Positions 42,257-54,856 of a stretch of 64,000 nucleotides of DNA are shown piece after piece. The stretch covers positions 1 through 64,000 of the forward strand of contig CAJOKD010000019.1 in the NCBI GenBank assembly GCA_905235085.1, written 5' to 3'. The stretch is from an uncultured Bacteroidales bacterium. GTDB lineage: Bacteria; Bacteroidota; Bacteroidia; Bacteroidales; UBA932. The notes under the pieces were generated by a model. It saw only the letters and a list, made by a program, of their open reading frames with translations. It was not told the DNA's origin and made no database searches. How positions within the stretch are numbered: position 1 is the first letter of the stretch; each line of letters begins with the position of its first letter. Made by a program: the position numbers and the translations under genes.

Positions 42257-42347
42257 GCGGAAGCGAAATGCGAAGCCTATAAACATATGAAAAACTTTGT
42301 AAATGATATATTTTTATATATCTTTACGCAACTAAACAGGAACAACT

Positions 42348-42542
42348 ATGAGAACAATCAAAGTCCGCAAAGTGATAAAACTCTTGCAACAGGACGGCTG
42401 GGAAATCGTAAGGGTTAAAGGAGATCACAGGCAGTTTAAATGCAGGGACAAACCGGGGACGGTGACAGTCAGCGGGAAACTCAACGACGACGTCGATCCC
42501 TTTCTCCTAAACAGCATATGGAAACAAGCAGGTTGGAAATAA
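42348..42542 (+). CDS. hicA: HicA family mRNA interferase toxin
   Basis: VRKVIKLLQQDGWEIVRVKGDHRQFKCRDKPGTVTVSGKLNDDVDPFLLNSIWKQAG. Confidence 0.92.
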   Translation: MRTIKVRKVIKLLQQDGWEIVRVKGDHRQFKCRDKPGTVTVSGKLNDDVDPFLLNSIWKQAGWK

Positions 42543-42562
42543 TAGAATAAATGATCTAGACA

Positions 42563-42967
42563 ATGAATAATATGAAAATACTGATAGACTGGGTTCCGGA
42601 CAACTTTGCGGCAGCTCCGGTCAATGATGAGATAGCCTGCATTGCCACAGGAGAATCACTCGAAGAAGTCAAGAAGAATATTATTGATGCTCTGGAGTTC
42701 CATATGGAAGGCCTTGTCGAAAATGGTGAAGCTATCCCTGAGGAATTCCGCAGCGGAATGCCTCCAGAGTTCATCCTGACGACCAGGGCGCAACTGAAGT
42801 ATTGCGACCTGTACATTACCCGCAAGGCTCTTGCCAAGGAAACAGGTATCAACGAGCGGCAACTCAGCCATTACGCCAACGGGCTGCGCCACCCCAGGCC
42901 AGCGATGAGGCTCCGGATCTCAGAAGGTATCCGCGCCATCCGCGACCGACTCGGCGTCGTTCTTTAA
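42563..42967 (+). CDS. hicB: HicB family antitoxin with C-terminal HTH
   Basis: HicB fold then KALAKETGINERQLSHYANGLRHPRPAMRLRISEGIRAI. Confidence 0.9.
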   Translation: MNNMKILIDWVPDNFAAAPVNDEIACIATGESLEEVKKNIIDALEFHMEGLVENGEAIPEEFRSGMPPEFILTTRAQLKYCDLYITRKALAKETGINERQLSHYANGLRHPRPAMRLRISEGIRAIRDRLGVVL

Positions 42968-42977
42968 TGACTATAAT

Positions 42978-43293
42978 ATGGACAAGATAATAGCAATCAT
43001 TGAAAGGGCGTCAGACGGGACTTATGCCGTTTACTGCAAGGACCAGATCTTCTCCGGTGCCGGATCCTCCATCGAGGAAGCCAAGAAAGACATGGTGGTC
43101 CAGATGGCCTTCTATAAGGACACCGCTTTGAAAGAGGGCTTCAAGTACCCCGCCTTCCTTGACGAAATGTTCGAGATTGAATACACAATTGCGGGCATAT
43201 CTCCACGGCACTAAACCCCGCAAGACGCAGGCGGACCGCATCAGATCCGGATTCAGCACCTTGTACCACGACCTCGGCAGCGCGATGGTGTGA
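42978..43293 (+). pseudogene. second HicB-like antitoxin, disrupted
   Basis: MDKIIAIIERASDGTYAVYCKDQ...FEIEYT then frame change to QLRAYLHGTKPRKTQADRIRSGFSTLYHDLGSAMV* (stop 43291-43293). Confidence 0.7.
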
Positions 43294-43437
43294 ATGCTGG
43301 CCGAGTTCGTGGTTCATTCACTAACGAAAAAATGCCCGGCCCCGCCGAGCATCCTTCTCTATTCTGTCCACCCTGTGTACTCCGCCCACCGGATTCCCGT
43401 TCTCTGAGATTTGCTAAAGAAAGAATAACCCTTGTAT

Positions 43438-44580
43438 TTAGGACAGGGCATTGCATCCCGCAGTTATGTCGAAATAAACCTCCATTTCTTTCGGCTTCTT
43501 ATCCTGGGCGGACTTTACTTCAAAGCAAAGCCGGTCCAGTTTCTTATCGCCCACGCTTATCAGATGCTGGGCAATCATCTTCGATTCCAGATTCTTCAGT
43601 TGGAACAAGATGTCGGAAATGACATACTCAAGGTGGACGTATCCGTCAGTCTCGGTGATCACGATGGGATGCTCCTTGTCTTTTCCTATATGGAATTCGC
43701 AGTCCTCTTTATCAATCAATTCTGAGATATCTATCTTGTTGTCATAGAAAATGCGGGATGCGCCAATAGCATCGCCCAGATCTTCAATATCGAAATTGTA
43801 CCTAATTATTCCTGTTGCCACCATTCGGTCAACCTCAGTTCTGGCCGCCACCCTCGGATTGGGCTGCTGGACATTGATATTCGCCGGCCATCCGAAAACC
43901 CAGGCCTCAAGGTTTCTGACATCTACACCTACCTCGCGGGCAGTCTCACACATCAGCTCGCAGTAGTCATAATAGACATCCTCGAACTTTGTTGACTCAG
44001 CATAAGTCACTGTATTGTCAACAGGGAGATAGTAGAAGAACGGATTCCGTCCTGCTTCCGGCATCAAAGCAAAATGCACAGGCTGCATATTCTCATCATA
44101 AATCAGAGGACGATTGTTTAAATCCATATCAAAGGTAAGGAAGTAAAGCAACTTAGTGAAGTAGCTGGGGCCAATGCCATAGAAATAGTTTTCACCTCCT
44201 CTCTTCAAGGACGCAATGGCACCTTCAATTCTCTCAATGTCGGTCTCGGAGTTGCGTAGCAGCGCAGCAAGTCTCTCCAGTTTGGGCATAGTTGTATTGC
44301 GGTCGTTGTTCAGGGCAATTCCCTCAGCCTGAAAACGGCTGATCCCGCCCCACATGATAGTGGCCACGAAACCCTTGTATAGATCCTCACGGAAGAGTCT
44401 GACTACATCTTCACGAGACAATTCAGCAGGGAGATTCCGGACAACCTCTGCAAAATCGCCATCAGTGGCTTCTGCTCTTCCGACAGGATTGGCGAACCTG
44501 CCTTCGCGCCAATGGATAGAGGGTTGGACATAGTTGTTGATGTCGTCGATGTGGGTTTTGATTAAGTTGATAAATGACAT
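43438..44580 (-). CDS. OGG/HhH-fold DNA glycosylase-like protein
   Basis: FVATIMWGGISRFQAEGIA...ENYFYGIGPSYFTKLLYFLTFDMDLNNRPLIYDENM resembles OGG-fold proteins. Confidence 0.5.
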   Translation of the reverse strand: MSFINLIKTHIDDINNYVQPSIHWREGRFANPVGRAEATDGDFAEVVRNLPAELSREDVVRLFREDLYKGFVATIMWGGISRFQAEGIALNNDRNTTMPKLERLAALLRNSETDIERIEGAIASLKRGGENYFYGIGPSYFTKLLYFLTFDMDLNNRPLIYDENMQPVHFALMPEAGRNPFFYYLPVDNTVTYAESTKFEDVYYDYCELMCETAREVGVDVRNLEAWVFGWPANINVQQPNPRVAARTEVDRMVATGIIRYNFDIEDLGDAIGASRIFYDNKIDISELIDKEDCEFHIGKDKEHPIVITETDGYVHLEYVISDILFQLKNLESKMIAQHLISVGDKKLDRLCFEVKSAQDKKPKEMEVYFDITAGCNALS

Positions 44581-44674
44581 AGTATAGGTATTATAACAAT
44601 GTTAATTTTATTACCTGAAAACCAGGCAAACCTGATGAAGACCATTGCTCGGAAGAATCAGAGCTTAACCCATC

Positions 44675-45286
44675 CTACTCCCAAGGAAACATCTCGTGGT
44701 TCTGTTCCATCATGCTACCGAGTTTCCAGAACACAGAGTCGAGAATCTTCATATATCCGATTCCCTGACAGTTGAATCGCTTGCGGAAACTTCCCACGAT
44801 CGGATGGTCATTAAGCGAACGATAGGTATCAATAATATCAAGATAGATGGAATGCTGGTGGTCCAGGCGTGTCTCATCAGGATTGAATGGTTTCTGGAAC
44901 ACCAGGCCGACCATTCGGTCATAAATCGGATACTCGGCGTCATCCAGGAGATTGAGCATCTTTGTCGCGAAAGAGAAATAAGACTTCCCCATTGCAGGCC
45001 TTAACTCTTCCGTCAACTGCCTCGCACCTACGCCAGTATATGTATTACTGAGCGATTCCATCTTGGAGAAGAATGCCGCCTTACCCTCCCCCGGAACTAT
45101 CCCCATCCCATAGAAAGCAGAGAAAGCCCACTGGAACAAAGGGTTGCGACTGACATCCCCTTTCCGGAACTCATCCTTGAGGAAAGAATAAACCGCCACA
45201 TTGGTAGCGAAATAAGCATCTTCAAAAATCGAAGGGTCATTGGTTAAATAATAATCCAACAACCTGATAGCATTGTTATTAATCAT
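44675..45286 (-). CDS. HhH-glycosylase-like helical protein
   Basis: LRPAMGKSYFSFATKMLNLLDDAEYPIYDRMVGLVF; 203 aa. Confidence 0.4.
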   Translation of the reverse strand: MINNNAIRLLDYYLTNDPSIFEDAYFATNVAVYSFLKDEFRKGDVSRNPLFQWAFSAFYGMGIVPGEGKAAFFSKMESLSNTYTGVGARQLTEELRPAMGKSYFSFATKMLNLLDDAEYPIYDRMVGLVFQKPFNPDETRLDHQHSIYLDIIDTYRSLNDHPIVGSFRKRFNCQGIGYMKILDSVFWKLGSMMEQNHEMFPWE

Positions 45287-45533
45287 ACAGAATAAAATAT
45301 TAAAAACTATTCTTCGGGCTCTTCATTTAATCATCTAGACTTTGAGGTCAAGCGTCTCAAGTGGCAACAAGATTCACATCGGCTCTAATCTATGGGCTCA
45401 ATAAACCCATTAATACCAGATTCCAGGGTTTCTTCGTAAAACTCTCCCCTGCGGGTTTAAAACGATCGATGGACAGATACCACGCCGTCACATCGAAGAA
45501 ATACTGTAATAAGCATGTCGCTTTGTTCCTGAG

Positions 45534-46211
45534 TTATCTCGATCTTTGCCATGTCCAGACAATATGATCAAGATGTCTGGCTGTCATATCAGGATAGCCA
45601 TGCTCTCGGTAATACTCGACCGCATTACGGAATAGCGTTTTAATCTGTTCTTTAGTCAAAGGATGCCCCACTGCAGTCTCAGAAAAGCGTGTTAGCCAAG
45701 TGTCCACTTTAACGCCATCCTCGTCACCGGCAAGCATGAAGAAATAGTCTACAGCAACGTTCTGACCTTTGATACTCTTCAAAGCATTCTTCAAATCGTC
45801 ACTTTCCTCGCATAAACGGTTAACATCTTGAAAAGTCTCAATTCCAAACCTTTGAAAGACTTTCAAATACTCAAGAAATGCTTCCGCTTTGAGGATGCCG
45901 TTTCTCGAACTGGTTTTCTGCTTATTTTTTAATGCTTTCGCAAGCCTATCCCCATCATATCCTTCCAGACGCTTGACAAGATCCGATATTTTTACCTGCT
46001 CCTCTACACTTGGGAGTTTGTGGGGATCAGGAGCAGTCCGGACAATCTTGGTCAAATCGCAGAATCTGTCAAGCAGTGGACTAACAACAGAATAATATCT
46101 CGCCTGTATAGAAAAGACTGCATCTAAAGCACATAACCCGACACAGGAGTAATACTCCATGTCAGGAATAGGAGCTAATGCCCGGTCACAATGTCTTAGA
46201 AACAACTCCAT
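45534..46211 (-). CDS. HhH-glycosylase-like helical protein
   Basis: LKSIKGQNVAVDYFFMLAGDEDGVKVDTWLTRFSETAVG...TARHLDHIVWTWQRSR; start at MELFLRHCD chosen to follow the upstream stop. Confidence 0.45.
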   Translation of the reverse strand: MELFLRHCDRALAPIPDMEYYSCVGLCALDAVFSIQARYYSVVSPLLDRFCDLTKIVRTAPDPHKLPSVEEQVKISDLVKRLEGYDGDRLAKALKNKQKTSSRNGILKAEAFLEYLKVFQRFGIETFQDVNRLCEESDDLKNALKSIKGQNVAVDYFFMLAGDEDGVKVDTWLTRFSETAVGHPLTKEQIKTLFRNAVEYYREHGYPDMTARHLDHIVWTWQRSR

Positions 46212-46215
46212 CTCG

Positions 46216-46575
46216 CTACTTTTCTGTTGATTTTGCGCTGTACATTCCATAGATAACGCCCCAGGCGATAATAGCAAGAAGAAGAACGACAACAATGTAA
46301 ATGTCAACCTTGTATTCAAAGCACGAGAATATGATGTTCGCAGCCGCAATTGCAAGGACCATAATCCAAGAAAAGACCTTGATATTAACGCCCCTGTTTG
46401 CATTTACATATTTCAATCCCATAGCAGGGATAATGACACTCGCTATAGAAACGAATCCAATCGCTAGAGAAATCCAATTCCTGCTCTCAGTTTCAGGCGC
46501 AATTATCTCACATACAAACCCCAAGAGAACCGCAATAGCAAGGGCCAGTATGATTTTTATACCATCAATCTTCAT
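46216..46575 (-). CDS. small membrane protein, about 4 TM helices
   Basis: Alternating hydrophobic segments, e.g. ILALAIAVLLGFVCEIIAP, VFSWIMVLAIAAANIIFSCF. Confidence 0.7.
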   Translation of the reverse strand: MKIDGIKIILALAIAVLLGFVCEIIAPETESRNWISLAIGFVSIASVIIPAMGLKYVNANRGVNIKVFSWIMVLAIAAANIIFSCFEYKVDIYIVVVLLLAIIAWGVIYGMYSAKSTEK

Positions 46576-46576
46576 A

Positions 46577-46918
46577 TTACTTCATTTTAGCAAGGAAAAA
46601 CAGTTTGTTAACCTCCGGGACCTGGGCAGCGGGTGCCCAAACACTCATGCCAGGTTTCCACACCAAGGTCTCGGGCGTCAAAAGATCATTCTGCACCAAT
46701 TTTACTAACTCCTCATCGGAGAAAGGGCCAGCCTGCGTGCCGTCGACGGCAAGGTATGTCTGACTCTGCTCTTTTATTGGAGGCGGTGTAGGAGCGGTCC
46801 CCTGCTCATTCGGCTGAGGCATTACGCTATTGATCATTGCCGGCATCTGCTGAATCATTGACATTCCGATGCCTAATTCCATCATCTTTTCGATGAAGCT
46901 TCCGCTGTCTTCTGTCAT
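46577..46918 (-). CDS. GYF_2 (DUF4339) domain protein
   Basis: YLAVDGTQAGPFSDEELVKLVQNDLLTPETLVWKPGMSVWAPAAQVPEV. Confidence 0.8.
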   Translation of the reverse strand: MTEDSGSFIEKMMELGIGMSMIQQMPAMINSVMPQPNEQGTAPTPPPIKEQSQTYLAVDGTQAGPFSDEELVKLVQNDLLTPETLVWKPGMSVWAPAAQVPEVNKLFFLAKMK

Positions 46919-46920
46919 AG

Positions 46921-47256
46921 CTAAATCATTGAGATAATGTGAAGACAATCTTTGATGAACTTCCATTCCGGCCAGCCTTGTGTCCAAATATAGAAGTCAG
47001 GAGTGATGGCTTCAGCCTTGAGCAAATCCCGGATTTGCGCCAAAGTAAATGGACCTCGTTGTTCGGTCCCAGCTGCAAGTACATACTGCTCTTGCTCCTT
47101 ATTTTGGAAAACCGGGAGGACAACGTGCGGTTGAATGCCGAACTGCGGCACCTCGGTCTGCATTGCCTTGATGCTGTTCTTGGCCTGATCGGCCAAAGCT
47201 TGCCACTGATCTGAAGCAACAAGCTTATCCAAAGTATTAAAATCTAACTGTCTCAT
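46921..47256 (-). CDS. GYF_2 domain protein
   Basis: YVLAAGTEQRGPFTLAQIRDLLKAEAITPDFYIWTQGWPEWKFIKD. Confidence 0.75.
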   Translation of the reverse strand: MRQLDFNTLDKLVASDQWQALADQAKNSIKAMQTEVPQFGIQPHVVLPVFQNKEQEQYVLAAGTEQRGPFTLAQIRDLLKAEAITPDFYIWTQGWPEWKFIKDCLHIISMI

Positions 47257-47261
47257 AGTAA

Positions 47262-48806
47262 TTACGGCTTTGGGATTGGAGGTACACCAGGAATGGGCGG
47301 AGGAACCGTACCAGGAGGAGGTCCGAACAACGCGCTCAGGTCAGGAATAAGCTTCATCGGTTGCCAAGATGGCATACCCGTGCTCCACGCAAGGGTATCA
47401 CCATTAATCTGGCCCGCTGAGAGCATCTGACTAAGGGCGTTTACATCACAAGGGCCATACTGAGAACCGTTTATTGCAAGATACCATATAGCCTGTTGAG
47501 GCGAAGGAATAGGAGGTGGAGTCTGCTGAGGTTGGCCTGCAGAAGCCATTCCTTGCTGCATTGTCTGTCCCATTTGATTCATCATTCCTCCGACCTGCTG
47601 ACCCATCGCTGCGCCCATCATCATACCGGTCATCATGCCGGCAGGATTCATATGTCCATCCCCTCCGCCGAAATTCATCGAACCCATCTGCCCGATGTTT
47701 TCCATTCCTGTCTTGAGGACTTCCGCCTGCTTGTTGATACTGTGTGCGTTGATATATGCGGACTCGCTGCCCAGACCAGCCTGTTTCGCAGCCTGCTCCG
47801 TTTGTGAATGCTGAGCAAACTGGCCTTCCTCACGCATCCTAGCTGTCGCATCTTTTATGTGCTCCATCTGAATCTGCGCCATTTCCTTCGCAGTCTGGTT
47901 GCGAATGTCTGCATCAGTCCGCATCGTCTCTCGCTTAATCTCGAAACTGAGAAGAGTGGTCTTCTCATTCTCAAGGTTGTAAAGCTGTGCCTGATCTTCA
48001 GTGAGACGCTTGAGTTTCTGGTAACCTTCGCTATCCTCATCATATCGGATATCTTCTATGAGGATATCGCTTGCGAAGATGCCGAAACGTTGCATTATCC
48101 GCTCCTGAACACGGGAAAGAATATAATGCCCCATCTCACCTATGAGCTGGTTAAAGTGCATGATGAAAATGCTTGTATCCCTTGGGGCAGTAGCAACAAT
48201 CTGCTTAATTTCCTGAGTCAAGAGAGTCTTCACTTTCTCACGGAATTCCTCCATCTTTGTGTCGGATGTCCCCCATGCTTCCAGGAAGTATTTCACCATG
48301 GCAGGATCTGTCGGGACTTGGAATGCCATAGCCCCTTTTACCGCGACTTCAATGTCATAAGCTTTATACTCCGGTTCTGAAGGAATCACTCGGAAATACG
48401 GAATGGTGAATGGAAGCTCCATTCCACGAGCGAGATTGATATAATAGACCTCAGCTTGGAAAGGAGTGCCCCCTTTATAAGCCATACCTACGATTGAGGC
48501 GAGTACCGGCATATTATCTGTTCTGATAATATCGTCATAAGGCCCCACGATCACATCATACTCCCCTTTGTTCTGATAAAGGAACACTGCCGCCTGGCCC
48601 GGGCGCACTCGCAGGCTGCTCCCATAGCGGATGTTGTTTTCCTTGCGTGAAGCACCTGCTTCCGCCATTGAGTTTGGCCGCCACTTCCAAATGAGAAAAT
48701 CTTTCTCATCACAACGGATGGCATCCATTATGCCACCTTCTTTCCCACGGACTTGGCTTGAAAGCCCTTCCTGATTCGTTTTCTTATTAAAAAGACCCAT
48801 CTTCAC
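47262..48806 (-). CDS. SPFH-domain protein (YdjI-like) with C-terminal GYF_2
   Basis: GSSLRVRPGQAAVFLYQNK...YYINLARGMELPFTIP; Met/Gly-rich linker; IWYLAINGSQYGPCDVNALSQML...LAWSTGMPSWQPMKLIPDL. Confidence 0.85.
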   Translation of the reverse strand: MKMGLFNKKTNQEGLSSQVRGKEGGIMDAIRCDEKDFLIWKWRPNSMAEAGASRKENNIRYGSSLRVRPGQAAVFLYQNKGEYDVIVGPYDDIIRTDNMPVLASIVGMAYKGGTPFQAEVYYINLARGMELPFTIPYFRVIPSEPEYKAYDIEVAVKGAMAFQVPTDPAMVKYFLEAWGTSDTKMEEFREKVKTLLTQEIKQIVATAPRDTSIFIMHFNQLIGEMGHYILSRVQERIMQRFGIFASDILIEDIRYDEDSEGYQKLKRLTEDQAQLYNLENEKTTLLSFEIKRETMRTDADIRNQTAKEMAQIQMEHIKDATARMREEGQFAQHSQTEQAAKQAGLGSESAYINAHSINKQAEVLKTGMENIGQMGSMNFGGGDGHMNPAGMMTGMMMGAAMGQQVGGMMNQMGQTMQQGMASAGQPQQTPPPIPSPQQAIWYLAINGSQYGPCDVNALSQMLSAGQINGDTLAWSTGMPSWQPMKLIPDLSALFGPPPGTVPPPIPGVPPIPKP

Positions 48807-49136
48807 TTACTTCTTTTCTAAATATGCTTTACATATCGCTGGCACATCAGGTGCAAGAATATAACTTGGGTTTCTCCAACCTTTAGTTGTTGAATAGTTG
48901 CTGGATTTACCCCTTTCCTCGACAGAAAGAGAATCCATTCGATCACAAACACTTTTCCACAATGCTCGATCGATGTAGTAATGCCTCCCATCAATACCGA
49001 TGGTCATGATTGTCGCCTCGTTCTCGTACTTGATGTAAAAAAAACTCTCTCCACCAAGCATATCGATTCGTTTAACAACAGGTTTTCTCAGCCAAGTCAA
49101 AATGCGACCGAACTGAACGGATTTTAATTCTGGCAT
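48807..49136 (-). CDS. hypothetical protein in SPFH cassette
   Basis: 109 aa ORF tightly packed 5' of the SPFH gene; no recognised domain. Confidence 0.6.
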   Translation of the reverse strand: MPELKSVQFGRILTWLRKPVVKRIDMLGGESFFYIKYENEATIMTIGIDGRHYYIDRALWKSVCDRMDSLSVEERGKSSNYSTTKGWRNPSYILAPDVPAICKAYLEKK

Positions 49137-49284
49137 ATCATATATACTTTATGTAATTATCAATCAGTCCTGCATCCATAAGAAGAAACTCTATATTATG
49201 AGCGCAGAGTAACTTATAGCTAACTTAGTATCCATTCATGATCCTATTGTTTTCGTAATACTATCATTATTGATAACACGTTGC

Positions 49285-50247
49285 TCACTCGACTTTGTTT
49301 ATTGAGGCGAGCACAGATTCTCGCACTTCCGGATCAGAAATACTAGCTGCCACCACTTTAGCTTGTTGTATTTCGCCTTGCGATATCAAATACGAAACTT
49401 CTTGAGCCGAAATATCATCGATTAGTTTCGTCACATCTCCTGAATACTTATGTGCGGCTGACTTGGCTCCTTGATAATCATTGTTATGAATGCACATCTG
49501 TATCTGATCCTGAACGTTACTATCACTCTTAATCCCTAACGTGATGACGATTCCTGATACTAGAAAGCAAAGAGCTCCAACAATGATAGCAGCGCCATAT
49601 GATGCCCAGAAATCTTTTTTCCTCTTTTTCGAATACGCACTCTTTTTCTTGCCCTCTTGGTCTAATAATGACTTATAATGGCCGAGAAGGTCTCGAATCT
49701 CACTATTTGTATTACTATGTCTTTCCAATGCATGATAGGCTTGAAGAGACTTCCCGCGCCACGCATTTCTCACCGGTTCGCGCTTAGCATCTTTCTCATC
49801 CGTTCCGATAGCAGCATAATTGGAGTAAGACAATTCGAGCAATTGTAATAACCCTTCTTTTGTGGAGGGTATTGTAAAAGTGTTAATTATTGTTGCTTGT
49901 TTTTCGTAATTAGAAACATGACTCAATTTATCTTGAAGTTCGGCAATTTGCTTCCGTGCCATAATGCTAGCATAATTCTCCATCTCCAGGATAAACCCAC
50001 ATTCATGGCACTGGAGTGAAGCATCTGGTATTATGGCTCCACAATTTGGACACTTTCTTCTGTTTTCTCGGCTGCTCTGTCCTTGAATACTGCTGGTGGA
50101 GAATGCGCTCTCTAAATAAAACTCAATCTCATCATCGTCAATCCCATAAGCTTTGGCTTTTTTGAATATTATTTCCCTTTGCTTTGTTGTTAATCCACCA
50201 CTCTCCTTGGCAACGTTAATTAGTTTTTCAATATCAGGAGGATGCAT
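49285..50247 (-). CDS. zinc-ribbon + single TM protein
   Basis: CPNCGAIIPDASLQCHECGF; TM ASYGAAIIVGALCFLVSGIVITLGI; start at MHPPDIEKL. Confidence 0.75.
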   Translation of the reverse strand: MHPPDIEKLINVAKESGGLTTKQREIIFKKAKAYGIDDDEIEFYLESAFSTSSIQGQSSRENRRKCPNCGAIIPDASLQCHECGFILEMENYASIMARKQIAELQDKLSHVSNYEKQATIINTFTIPSTKEGLLQLLELSYSNYAAIGTDEKDAKREPVRNAWRGKSLQAYHALERHSNTNSEIRDLLGHYKSLLDQEGKKKSAYSKKRKKDFWASYGAAIIVGALCFLVSGIVITLGIKSDSNVQDQIQMCIHNNDYQGAKSAAHKYSGDVTKLIDDISAQEVSYLISQGEIQQAKVVAASISDPEVRESVLASINKVE

Positions 50248-50293
50248 ACTAATTTGAATTATAATCTTTGGGTATAACACTTCCCTGTGAATT

Positions 50294-51902
50294 CTATTCA
50301 CTAGGTTCCTTTAATGAAATAACAAAACTCTCCACATCCTTATCATCTACACAGTATTCAACTGTAACATCATCTGATACTACCTGCTCTTTTGACGGAT
50401 AATCAACCGTTGTCTTTCTCCGAATTCGTAGGTTACCATAGTATTCAAAATCATAATAGTATAGCGGAAAATCATCATATTCATCTAATGTCACTATAAT
50501 TTGGTTTAACCGCCCATTCTTATAATCGTAGTGATATGTGTTTGAGCTTAGCTTACTTAATGGGGCTTCATCTTTTTGGAATAACGTATCGATTTGAGAT
50601 CTTTCTAGCAGATACTTTATTTTAACTGTTGAAAGCAAATGTCCTCTATTACCATAGTCATATATAACCTCCTTAGTCGGAATCCCTTTATAAGATATTA
50701 TTTCTTTAGCCAATAAAACACCACCATATTCGAACTCATAAGTCAAGCTATAATAAGGTATATTAATTCTCTCTATGCGATCTGCAAATCTAATTACTTC
50801 TGAATTTCGAATACCCGGATAACCATTTTCCCATGCTTTCCACATATAATGCTGTGAGTAGTAATCTTGAACAAAATCTGGAAAGCGGAATTCGTAAGGC
50901 TCTGGTATTGTTATATCGTTCATGACTTTCAGGTAATCGGACCAAACCATTACGCCTGATCTAAGATTTACCGATCGCTCCATTCTAAGAGACTTGTCTG
51001 CCCTATAATACAGAGTATAACTCGAGTCAGGCTCACTCGCTAAGCCAACATAATGATCTTTTAGAGTATCTTTAAGTGGATAAAACGACATCCGGTCATT
51101 TAACAAACTGTACTTTCCTATTTCATCAACATACAGATGTATAGAATCAGGAGAATTAGTCTTGCCGCACATTATTAAAGCCTCTTTAATAAGACCATTC
51201 TGAGCCAAGATTTCTATTGCTTTGACCTCGCGCATATAGCATATCAGCAGCATTCTCATAAAGTCCTGCTTCAGTAAACACTTCAATTGCTTTATCCTCC
51301 CTTCCTAAAAAACCAAGAAGTCGAGCTGCTACTTGTTCGTTCCCGCTATTGACAAGCAGACTTGGCCAATCATAGAATAATACAAAAGCCACCAGCAATG
51401 CTAAACCAGCCAGACAAGAAAGGAGAGTCCAACGCCTCTTCTTATAATTGCCCGACAGTTTTGTAATAGCCTTTTTATCACCTAGAACCTTGTATTTTTC
51501 TAAGAGATCTTTTACTGAAGCATTCTCTTTTATCCCCTCCAGTCGGCGATAGGATTCCGCCGCCTTGCCCAACCATGCAATAGTCAGTTTTTTATCCCCA
51601 GACTCTTTGCATGCCTCGTAGTTTGAATATGAAAGATGAAGCAGGCGAGAGAGAGACTCCGCCGTATTCGGAACAGGAAATGAGTTAATAATGGATGCCT
51701 TCTTCTTTGACGACGACACCCCTGGGCTAAATACTTTATCCACTGCAAGAAGCTTTTCCTGTAAGTCCAGGATTGCATCAGTCGTGCTCTGGCTCCTTGC
51801 CGTTTCATTCATTAATGTATAACCACACTCCGGGCATTTTAATTCCATACCCGACAATGGTGCCCCACAATTAGGACATAAGTTCTTTCTATCTACGGCC
51901 AT
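50294..51902 (-). pseudogene. zinc-ribbon + TM protein, apparently frameshifted into two ORFs
   Basis: N-part (51186..51902) CPNCGAPLSGMELKCPECGY...AGLYENAADMLYAR; C-part (50294..51286) continues EVKAIEILAQNGLIKEALIMCGKTN in another frame. Confidence 0.65.
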
Positions 51903-51930
51903 TGTTTAGTGTTATTATGTTCCAAATATC

Positions 51931-52275
51931 TTATGCAATAGAATCCAATTTACCCCTGTATTTGTATGTGACAGAATGGCTCTCCTCATCATACTGCACC
52001 TCAAAGACCAGGTCTGTCCCAGGAGCATCGAGATGATTTGCAATGATCCATCGCTTCAGCTCTGCATTAGATACCCCACCTCTCCGGCTATAGTTAACCA
52101 AACGTCTCAGTGAAATCCGAGGATGATTTGGGAGAACAAAGTGCACAGCCGCCACTGCCTGGGGATCCTCACCACATATTTCTCTCCAAACATCAGTTGC
52201 TGTACTATTGCCAATAGCGACGTGACCAAGTGGTGTCACCCCTCGCACAACACGCAGTAAAACAAGTTTATCCAT
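51931..52275 (-). CDS. hypothetical protein, first gene of the SPFH cassette
   Basis: MDKLVLLRVVRGVTPLGHVAIGNSTATDVWREICGED; no recognised family. Confidence 0.5.
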   Translation of the reverse strand: MDKLVLLRVVRGVTPLGHVAIGNSTATDVWREICGEDPQAVAAVHFVLPNHPRISLRRLVNYSRRGGVSNAELKRWIIANHLDAPGTDLVFEVQYDEESHSVTYKYRGKLDSIA

Positions 52276-52426
52276 ACTCCAACAGTTATTAGTTTTGTCG
52301 TACAGTGTAATTTTTCGCCTCAAAAATAAACCTCTCCTTGACACGAATCAAGTTCACATTGGTTCAAATGAGAGCGGGGCAATAAATCCATATTCGCCAG
52401 ACCCGGAACGATTATTAAAAAAAAGA

Positions 52427-52500
52427 AAGTGTGGGCCTCCTAGACTTATCCAGAGGTGGGCTCTCGACAGCCGTGACGTGGATAAGGGATGCTCACACTT
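52427..52500. ncRNA. candidate structured RNA / terminator
   Basis: Three nested stems: AAGTGTGGGC/GCTCACACTT, CTTATCC/GGATAAG, GGCT/AGCC; A-rich tract at 52416-52428 would be a T tract downstream on the minus strand. Confidence 0.45.
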
Positions 52501-52758
52501 CCGCTATAGAATGAGCAGAGCCCATACTAATAGCCAGTGCAAGCGTTCGCTCTTATTCCTCCGTCACTTTGAATTGTCGAGATTCACCTACAAGGAATAG
52601 CTAAACGCTTTCTGTATGTATTATGCTGCATCAAAAACAGCAACTAGACAAATATAATTATTAATCTTTGAGAACCAATCAGAATTTGGTTCAAATTAGT
52701 TCAAAAGATGTTTGCGATTGATTCTCGGATCAATTCCAAACGTGCAGGGTCGTTCAAC

Positions 52759-53709
52759 TTATCTCTCATAGATCAAGTACTTATCCCGATCTACGGATGA
52801 GGAGGCGAAGGGCTTCAAGTACCCATTTTCAACCAAGTCGACTTGGCGACCGGTAATTCTCTCAAGATCCAGTTTGTGCCGGATAATGTCCAGCAAGGAA
52901 ACCTTAGCCTCCGGGGCGTATTCAACCAGCAGATCGATGTCACTCTCAGGTGTTTCTTCCTTGCGAGCGAAAGACCCGAATATCCAAGCTCGGCTGATTG
53001 GGAGAACCTTTGAAAAATACCTCTGGATGTTCCTGAACATTACCACCCTCCCGTCATCTACGAAAGAGAGGCTTTTATCCAATTCATCAGCCACTCCCCT
53101 CCTTGACGCATAGCGCCTCATACGGTCATAATTAACCGGATATACTTCAAGAGCGCGTTGAAAATCAATACATTGAGGGATGCCCTTATTGCCAGTCCGG
53201 CAAAGAGAATCCACGAGATCCTTTTCCAAAGAGGGCACAGGGCAGCCGGACACCTCTTTCATAGGAGCTTCAGAGACTAATGCTCCAACAACAATATAGC
53301 CCTCCAGGGGTACTGGAAACAGGTTGAAGTCTTTAACACTGATGACTTTCTGATATTTCTTCGTCAGCGAGGTAAACACTGTCTGGAGATTGCTCCTGGC
53401 CACCTCAATCCACATATTCAATCCCTTCTGGACTATGCAGTGATCGATTCCAACACATTGATTGTTCAGATACTCATTTACTTCCAGCATCCATTCTGTC
53501 ACAGGGACGACATATTCTGGTCTATGCACTGCCAGATATCGACCGCGCCCAGTCCTCGATAGAACGCCGCTACGAACCAACGACCGGATACGTGAGTGAA
53601 CAGTTTGGAAAGGAAGATCCGGATTGACCGCAACGAAATCAGCAACAGTCAATTCCCCTTCCCGAGCCAGCAGGTCTTCGTATTCAGATTTTGCCATCAG
53701 TGTTCCCAT
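52759..53709 (-). CDS. AbiEi-like wHTH regulator fused to MNT nucleotidyltransferase
   Basis: N-terminal wHTH FQTVHSRIRSLVRSGVLSRTGRGRYLAV; C-terminal AWIFGSFARKEETPESDIDLLVEY (GSxAR...SDIDL). Confidence 0.75.
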   Translation of the reverse strand: MGTLMAKSEYEDLLAREGELTVADFVAVNPDLPFQTVHSRIRSLVRSGVLSRTGRGRYLAVHRPEYVVPVTEWMLEVNEYLNNQCVGIDHCIVQKGLNMWIEVARSNLQTVFTSLTKKYQKVISVKDFNLFPVPLEGYIVVGALVSEAPMKEVSGCPVPSLEKDLVDSLCRTGNKGIPQCIDFQRALEVYPVNYDRMRRYASRRGVADELDKSLSFVDDGRVVMFRNIQRYFSKVLPISRAWIFGSFARKEETPESDIDLLVEYAPEAKVSLLDIIRHKLDLERITGRQVDLVENGYLKPFASSSVDRDKYLIYER

Positions 53710-53734
53710 CGGAAAAGAAACTTGTTCTTTCCTA

Positions 53735-53742
53735 CAAATATA
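53735..53742 (-). promoter_or_regulatory. -7 element of wHTH-nucleotidyltransferase gene
   Basis: Reverse complement TATATTTG (TAnnTTTG), 26 bp upstream of the start. Confidence 0.5.
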
Positions 53743-53744
53743 TC

Positions 53745-53783
53745 AATATTTCGGCAATATCAATCAGAAATTGCCGAAATATT
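53745..53783. promoter_or_regulatory. perfect 14-bp inverted repeat operator
   Basis: AATATTTCGGCAAT - 11 nt - ATTGCCGAAATATT adjacent to the -7 box. Confidence 0.65.
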
Positions 53784-53797
53784 TAAAAATAAACTAG

Positions 53798-54856
53798 CTA
53801 TTCGAACAATTCCGTGGCCTGGCGGAAGACTTCGTCGATGGCGCGCTGGTCGGAGATCGTGGAGGAGTCCTTGCGACTGGCCGACTGCTTGCTCTTTGGC
53901 TTAGGCTTGTCCATTGGTGCGGTAGGTGCGCCCTGTCCGGACACGACAGAAGGCGCCGGAGAATCAGGGAGTACAACGCTATCATCCTGCGAGGCCATGG
54001 TCGCAACAGTATCTGCAACAGCTTCGGGTTCAGCAGGTTCTCGAGAAAGGAGATGCCTCTCCAACGTAGGCACCAGCGCCATAAGAGCAATGAATAGGAT
54101 GAATATCACTCCAGCTACAACCGACCAGTTGCTCTTCAGTGCCTTTGTAACCTCCGCCACAGAAGCATACCGGTTCTCCGGCCTTGGGGAGCAAAGCTTA
54201 CGAACGACTGAAGAATACTTCCTCACAGGGAACAGAGACATCACCATTCCCAGGGAATACAAGTCACTCCGCACGTTCGCCTTGCCGCCCTCACGAACCT
54301 CCGGAGCTGCATAGACTGCTGTCCCGGCCGGGTTCTTCAAGATAGAGGAAGAGTCCGCGTCTGATAGGCCGAAGTCAATGAGCCTGACATTGTTGCCGGA
54401 ATATGTAACGAGGATGTTCGAAGGTTTCAAATCCCTATGCAGGACCTGCCGGGAATGCATATACGACAAGGCAGAGCAAATCTCCCCCACTATCTTGTCG
54501 CAGACGCTCCTTTCCGGTTTCCCCTCGGTCAGGAAAGACTCGAGGGTTCGCCCGTCCACCCATTCCATCTCAATGCAATTGCCGAGCGAAGGGTCCTTTA
54601 TGAATGAATAATACTCACAGATATTCTCGTGCCTAAGGGAATACCCTATTTCGAATTCTTTCTTGAGAAGCCTCTCATATACAGGCACTTCCCTATATTC
54701 CTCCTTAAGGCACTTCAGCACTCGGAAACGCCCGGAACGGTCGATCCTCCAGATTTCGGAATATCCTCCTTCGGAAGAACTGACAAGTTCCCTTGCATCA
54801 GTGGCAGGGGTCGCTTCCGCCGAAGGCGTATCAAAGAATTCCGAGGTATTATCCAT
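53798..54856 (-). CDS. Ser/Thr protein kinase with TM segment
   Basis: VLKCLKEEYR, HRDLKPSNILV, LIDFGLSD, YAAPEVR; TM VAGVIFILFIALMALVP; start at MDNTSEFF. Confidence 0.92.
   Translation of the reverse strand: MDNTSEFFDTPSAEATPATDARELVSSSEGGYSEIWRIDRSGRFRVLKCLKEEYREVPVYERLLKKEFEIGYSLRHENICEYYSFIKDPSLGNCIEMEWVDGRTLESFLTEGKPERSVCDKIVGEICSALSYMHSRQVLHRDLKPSNILVTYSGNNVRLIDFGLSDADSSSILKNPAGTAVYAAPEVREGGKANVRSDLYSLGMVMSLFPVRKYSSVVRKLCSPRPENRYASVAEVTKALKSNWSVVAGVIFILFIALMALVPTLERHLLSREPAEPEAVADTVATMASQDDSVVLPDSPAPSVVSGQGAPTAPMDKPKPKSKQSASRKDSSTISDQRAIDEVFRQATELFE

Follow-up and report, generated by a model that had tools for sequence, protein, structure and literature searches.

Three open reading frames on the minus strand, designated here P1, P2 and P3, lie together in a 2.8-kb segment of the window, the whole stretch of 64,000 nucleotides analysed from a contig of an uncultured rumen Bacteroidales bacterium. 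They were found at the coordinates, and with the motifs, quoted in an earlier note on this DNA. The features discussed below are:

42300–54000: variable low-GC island with P1, P2 and P3 (composition; synteny with loci L016–L023)
42348–42967, plus strand: HicA toxin (Pfam HicA_toxin, 5.9e-19) and HicB-like antitoxin, island edge
43438–44580, minus strand: P1, 380 aa, OGG-like domain (aa 19–229) and C-terminal module X
43441–43725, minus strand: module X of P1 (alignment, 32–34% identity to free-standing forms)
43894–44526, minus strand: OGG domain (PF21790) of P1 (Pfam)
44675–45286, minus strand: P2, 203 aa, all-helical, no recognised family
45534–46211, minus strand: P3, 225 aa, HhH-GPD-fold protein, family phrog_29694
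46216–49136, minus strand: gene run upstream of P3 (gaps of 4, 1, −67, 5 and 0 nt; Pfam)
52759–53709, minus strand: AbiEi-like (DUF6577) and nucleotidyltransferase fusion

In the ORF listing, the open frame of P3 extends to 46403; a start at 46211 is credible and preferred, since 4 nt then separate it from the upstream gene and the homologs begin to align close to this position. A sigma-70 promoter scan returned no more matches than scans of shuffled sequences, and the Bacteroidota promoter pattern had no match at P1, P2 or P3.

The GC content of 0.39–0.50 at 42–54 kb, as compared to 0.50–0.56 before, and a gene content that differs between related genomes bear out the accessory island postulated earlier, read here as a recent acquisition. 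The defence-rich context that had been claimed along with it was not recovered: locally, only the AbiE-like and HicAB-type toxin-antitoxin genes and a kinase matching PADLOC kinase models generically (and found at the island edge in relatives also) are present, and no complete known defence system was detected within the 64,000-nt window. A HicAB-type pair is found beside P2 in L018 as well. P3 closes a run of genes coding for a 109-aa conserved protein, an SPFH/Band7-GYF protein, two small GYF proteins and a small membrane-like protein; the 109-aa protein recurs in L016, L017, L020 and L021. Between this run and the AbiE-like gene, positions 49285–51902 encode zinc-ribbon proteins in partly overlapping frames, relatives of which are found in the vicinity of P3 (L019) and of P2 (L022).

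Each of the three families is rare. A survey of 197 other genomes of the same order detected P2 in two and neither P1 nor P3 in any; of 81 genomes of the genus, 2 have full-length P1, 3 have P2 and 2 have P3, with P2 accompanying P1 in both P1-bearing genomes (~9e-4, hypergeometric on the genus tallies). One island holds P1 (74–75% identity) together with P2 in each of the rumen MAGs G541, G542 and G544, and G542 additionally has another P2 gene with a P3 relative behind it, all three families thus being present. The rarity of each family in the order, combined with the location of all three genes within 2.8 kb, argues for more than chance. Nevertheless, the single multi-glycosylase module proposed in the earlier note is not supported: spacings of 247 and 94 bp separate the genes, P3 ends a run of its own, and gene order and partners vary among relatives, ruling out a common operon. 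P1, P2 and P3 are co-resident island cargo, as also follows from the varying order and partners.

The neighbouring genes raise the question of whether the proteins belong to other systems, P3 serving the SPFH/GYF membrane gene run and P1 the adjacent toxin-antitoxin-like genes. The 4 nt between P3 and that run, an AbiE-like fusion directly behind P1 in L064 and L066 that is similar to the one in the window, and the occurrence of module X both fused to P1 and after P2 in L022 would fit such roles. Since relatives of P3 occur by themselves on plasmids and in phage genomes, and since P3 has different neighbours in G542, we regard this explanation as quite improbable.

P3 can be assigned an HhH-GPD fold with confidence, judging from its AlphaFold model (pLDDT 87.8). 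All 50 of the 50 Foldseek matches listed were HhH-GPD enzymes, among them bacterial Ogg, mouse and human OGG1 and H. pylori MagIII, with a best probability of 1.00 and TM scores of up to 0.64. A profile of seven relatives matched an Ogg2-type 8-oxoguanine glycosylase/AP lyase in the PDB over the HhH-GPD core (E 0.0047; 0.021 with a 13-sequence profile), and a canonical EndoIII/MutY alignment, small and poor with its four sequences, matched P3 at E 4e-4, VDTH facing VDTW and the catalytic Asp being in register. D170, at the position of this Asp, is invariant; the protein lacks a Lys at the canonical place, and a monofunctional type is therefore expected.

The phage protein family phrog_29694, of unknown function, was matched by 13 of 13 P3 relatives tested; P3 itself differs in residing in a bacterial island gene run rather than in a phage. 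Relatives are encoded on Bacillus, Rhodococcus and Tenericutes plasmids, on IMG/VR contigs (in L056 and L061 at what by eye appears to be a terminase-portal boundary) and by phages AR9, PBS1 and Goe21, and no constant partner was found in the phages or in the Rhodococcus and Bacillus plasmid neighbourhoods. The family members of AR9 and PBS1 have been annotated independently as N-glycosylase or DNA glycosylase. The entry for Bacillus phage AR9 (L082, 4923–5633) reads ‘N-glycosylase’, with the note ‘DNA lyase, endonuclease III/AlkA family enzyme’, and the gene lies about 3.3 kb from a uracil-DNA glycosylase inhibitor gene. A P3-family N-glycosylase is encoded by AR9/PBS1-type jumbo phages, Goe21 included; PBS1 has uracil-DNA.

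Residues 19–229 of P1 correspond to the Pfam family PF21790 (OGG) with an E value of 2.3e-19 and 70.3 bits, well over the gathering cut-off of 27; neither P2 nor P3 matches this model. Membership of P1 in the OGG family is well supported at the sequence level, as is, by way of this Pfam assignment, a predicted HhH-GPD-type fold. The 8-oxoG activity of PF21790 is only putative, so that the designation ‘OGG-like’, as used earlier, is not supported as a statement on activity. Across seven OGG domains, T74, W77, G78, G137, S139, K143, I160 and D162 are invariant. By eye, the GIG hairpin and the D162 loop of P1 match the GVG...VPVD segment of OGG1, and a weak, non-significant profile alignment gives the same register, in which the invariant Lys of P1 is located one helical turn past K249 of OGG1. 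K143 hence appears to be displaced along the helix relative to the canonical position, while D162 is, by its motif, a candidate equivalent of the catalytic Asp. The spacing between K249 and D268 of OGG1, which we take to be 19 residues, is the same as that between K143 and D162, and the register of the P1 Lys may therefore differ from the one-turn-displaced reading. P1 is acidic (pI 4.8), which is unusual in DNA-binding enzymes, and its profile had no match in the PDB.

P1 also differs from the Pfam family by its added module X, the last ~95 residues, which in related genomes exists as a separate small protein (L022:8603–9010, L021:15590–16093, and L069; without Pfam match). The module X gene of L022 shares 4 nt with the end of the P2 gene there. 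The C-terminus of P1 gave a PvuRts1I-like Pfam match at E 0.024, which is below the cut-off, and this identity was not accepted. A 36-residue remnant of P1, 78% identical, in another genome of the genus (L107; G604:C42:201793–201900) suggests gain and loss of the gene. An OGG domain (PF21790, E 2.5e-8) is furthermore found joined to radical SAM and SPASM domains in a protein of ~752 aa (L016:10942–13200, also L017, L020 and L021), a predicted architecture which is unusual.

P2 matched nothing in Pfam, NCBIfam or PADLOC, and 11 of 33 relatives showed very weak similarity to DUF6308 (Pfam). One genome scan yielded 36 loci of the family, ranging from rumen Bacteroidales (54–67% identity) to Flavobacteriia, Patescibacteria, Lysinibacillus and two archaeal MAGs. 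An alignment of 33 sequences shows S105, F106, K109, I121 and D123 to be invariant, K109 and D123 being kept across Bacteroidota, Patescibacteria and Nanoarchaeota. The AlphaFold model (pLDDT 94.3) is all-helical, and its seven best Foldseek matches in the PDB are all HhH-GPD glycosylases, with MutY, Ogg and EndoIII nearest, at values below significance (E of at least 0.3, probability of at most 0.51, TM about 0.35). The weak structural neighbours include a phage amino acid:DNA transferase and human DUF2419 (Qng1). A search of viral structures (BFVD) gave nothing significant, and the P2 profile had no match in the PDB. The Gly-x-Gly hairpin is missing from the P2 sequence, the invariant Lys is seemingly displaced along the helix, and D123 could, by motif, correspond to the catalytic Asp. 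Like P1, P2 has an acidic pI (5.4) atypical of DNA-binding enzymes. Taken together, P2 is a possible distant HhH-GPD relative, and the model lends weak support to a shared fold.

The canonical HhH-GPD model PF00730 matched none of the three proteins; in a whole-genome search of the own genome, it had a single match, on another contig (C14). Comparison of the four-sequence canonical alignment, a poor one, with P1 and P2 gave nothing significant, and no profile relation between the P2 family and canonical HhH-GPD proteins was detected. Common ancestry of P1, P2 and P3 was not demonstrable by profile-profile comparison (probability 3.3 for P1-P2 and 0.3 for the other pairs). An acidic residue is conserved in each of the three families, and the weak P1-P2 alignment pairs [ST]K and I-x-D in register. 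The resemblance of all three proteins to HhH-GPD segments, as noticed originally, is thus upheld for P3 (Foldseek 1.00) and P1 (Pfam OGG) and possible for P2 (probability 0.51). As to the catalytic Lys and Asp, whose inspection the earlier note recommended, an Asp is invariant in each family, aligned with the catalytic one in P3 and equated with it by motif in P1 and P2, whereas P3 lacks the canonical Lys and K143 of P1 and K109 of P2 seem displaced.

If P2 were no glycosylase relative at all, the locus might represent a chance juxtaposition of unrelated orphan genes, a reading to which the low values of its structural matches (Foldseek probability 0.51, TM 0.35) and the BFVD result lend themselves. 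However, P1 and P2, as well as P2 and P3, recur together in related islands, and the weak P1-P2 profile alignment keeps both motifs in register, making such a coincidence highly improbable.

Part of the relatives reside in defence neighbourhoods. In L078 (4295–14850), the OGG gene is located inside a type I restriction-modification operon of the order hsdM-hsdS-OGG-ATPase-hsdR (HsdR identified by Pfam, hsdM and hsdS by eye); the OGG-like gene and a gene for a 1061-aa protein with weak HATPase/NOV_C similarity lie between hsdS and hsdR. In L079, the distance between an OGG gene and a type I RM-like pair, the latter identified only by eye, is 2.3 kb. On a Vibrio plasmid (L084), an OGG gene follows an AbaSI-family endonuclease gene at 83 bp, with a WYL regulator nearby, and a Streptomyces plasmid (L085) has one at 2 kb from a Cas3-like gene. 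Relatives of P2 occur near BrxB/BrxC of BREX (L030), a type I restriction endonuclease and an FRG protein (L051), a type I specificity subunit and an AAA ATPase (L042), and MTase_II and Vsr (L040). On an IMG/VR phage contig, a ParB-N6/N4 methylase gene (L053:2066–3355; Pfam) directly follows a P2 relative; a gene of the same type, without Pfam confirmation, occupies this place on another IMG/VR contig (L054:2044–3273). Around the majority of P2 relatives, no defence gene was recognised. These neighbourhoods agree with the earlier expectation of a defence context as far as relatives are concerned (type I RM and AbaSI for the P1 family; BREX, type I RM and methyltransferase plus Vsr for the P2 family); uncorrected for background frequency, they are suggestive of a defence link only.

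The same neighbourhoods bear on the idea that the three proteins are accessory repair enzymes, i.e., additional base-excision enzymes directed against oxidative or alkylation damage which came to reside on the island by chance. Repair enzymes are indeed the nearest solved folds, and Pfam labels P1 as OGG; but the sporadic distribution, the finding of family members within RM operons, next to a nuclease of the AbaSI family and on plasmids and phage genomes, and the canonical HhH-GPD gene which the genome already possesses render this explanation improbable.

The reading we tentatively prefer, while giving it somewhat less than an even chance, is that P1, P2 and P3 are independent base-excision-type effectors, probably anti-phage. 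Three highly diverged HhH-GPD-related enzymes, each acquired independently, would ride the variable island as cargo, and each would be specific for one modified or otherwise unusual base in phage or plasmid DNA entering the cell. The base would be flipped out and its glycosidic bond cut by means of the conserved Asp (P3) or a Lys/Asp pair (P1, P2), and the resulting abasic sites would stall replication or be cut by host AP endonucleases. Base excision might thus complement nucleases which modified DNA evades, the proteins acting as separate single-gene effectors without forming a joint complex. Catalysis, substrate and anti-phage role are inferred. In favour of glycosylase effectors are the OGG domain of P1, the fold, profile match and Asp register of P3, the AR9/PBS1 annotations, and the nearest PDB structures of P2 with its invariant K109 and D123; an anti-phage function is favoured by the RM, BREX and AbaSI neighbourhoods of relatives, by island gain and loss, and by rarity. 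Several observations argue against effectors: P1-P3 have no PADLOC match and no NCBIfam match of note, most P2 relatives lack a defence neighbour, the fold similarity of P2 is subsignificant and without profile relation to canonical HhH-GPD, P1 and P2 are acidic, P3 relatives in phages and on plasmids have no constant partner, and the OGG-radical SAM/SPASM fusion suggests roles beyond base excision.

Some of these points feed the main rival reading, namely that HhH-GPD folds have been repurposed as base transferases of the hypermodified-thymidine type, as small-molecule or RNA N-glycosylases (Qng1-like), or as plain binding modules. The Lys position of the canonical hairpin is missing from P1 and P2 and the Gly-x-Gly hairpin from P2, a phage amino acid:DNA transferase and Qng1 are among the weak structural neighbours of P2, the radical SAM/SPASM fusion is found in the same islands, and the acidic pI would fit as well. 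The likeness to base-modifying transferases draws on general background and on one weak structural match. Since the invariant Lys/Asp pair of P1 and P2 and the Asp of P3 would suit glycosylase catalysis, and none of the three proteins matches the aGPT-PPlase model of Pfam, repurposing seems unlikely to us. aGPT-PPlase is among the untested defence domains predicted by DefensePredictor (PMC13092281).

Should base-excision effectors be the correct reading, P1-P3 may function like Brig proteins without belonging to those families. Shared features would be base removal from modified phage DNA, as proposed for P1-P3, and single-gene effectors in islands. Brig1 is a member of the uracil-DNA glycosylase superfamily (PMC11078745) and Brig3 resembles AAG (PMC13160076), so neither is an HhH-GPD protein, whereas the P3 model matches HhH-GPD rather than UDG or AAG folds; Brig family membership was rejected, and the analogy to Brig1 drawn in the earlier note extends to the proposed function but not to the fold. 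PabI-type restriction glycosylases, with which restriction by base excision would be shared, have a HALFPIPE fold (PMC10273834) and methylation-dependent self protection; P1-P3 are without a linked dedicated methylase. With the HhH-GPD superfamily (OGG1/Ogg2, MutY, EndoIII, MagIII/AlkA) the proteins have in common the all-helical fold, confidently so for P3, the conserved Asp and, for the P3 family, the EndoIII/AlkA-like annotation in phage AR9; they differ by the missing PF00730 match, the Lys absent from the canonical place in P3 and seemingly displaced in P1 and P2, and the missing hairpin glycines of P2. No report of HhH-GPD anti-phage effectors was found in the literature searched.

A bolder proposal, speculative and on balance rather doubtful, would be an undescribed class of HhH-GPD-fold restriction glycosylases. 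Proteins of the P1 and P2 types, with a displaced Lys/Asp pair, would assist type I RM, BREX and AbaSI-type systems as accessory effectors, stripping phage DNA of its protective modified bases; islands would combine several such enzymes with different base specificities, and phages with dU-DNA, PBS1 for instance, would encode their own P3-type protein. Base-removal defence is known for few proteins, which have other folds (Brig proteins, PabI family). If true, the occurrence of HhH-GPD-type proteins as mobile cargo and within restriction operons would add the best-studied glycosylase superfamily to this list and provide new enzymes recognising modified bases. In the libraries searched, no function is assigned to P2, present in several bacterial phyla and two archaeal MAGs, or to P3, with its phage, plasmid and island relatives.

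As a minor observation, an ORF without Pfam match at E 0.001 is located 3 nt upstream of a P2 relative in L046 (1–498), and likewise in L005; its product starts with VLFVAESPP and by eye resembles the uracil-DNA-glycosylase superfamily.
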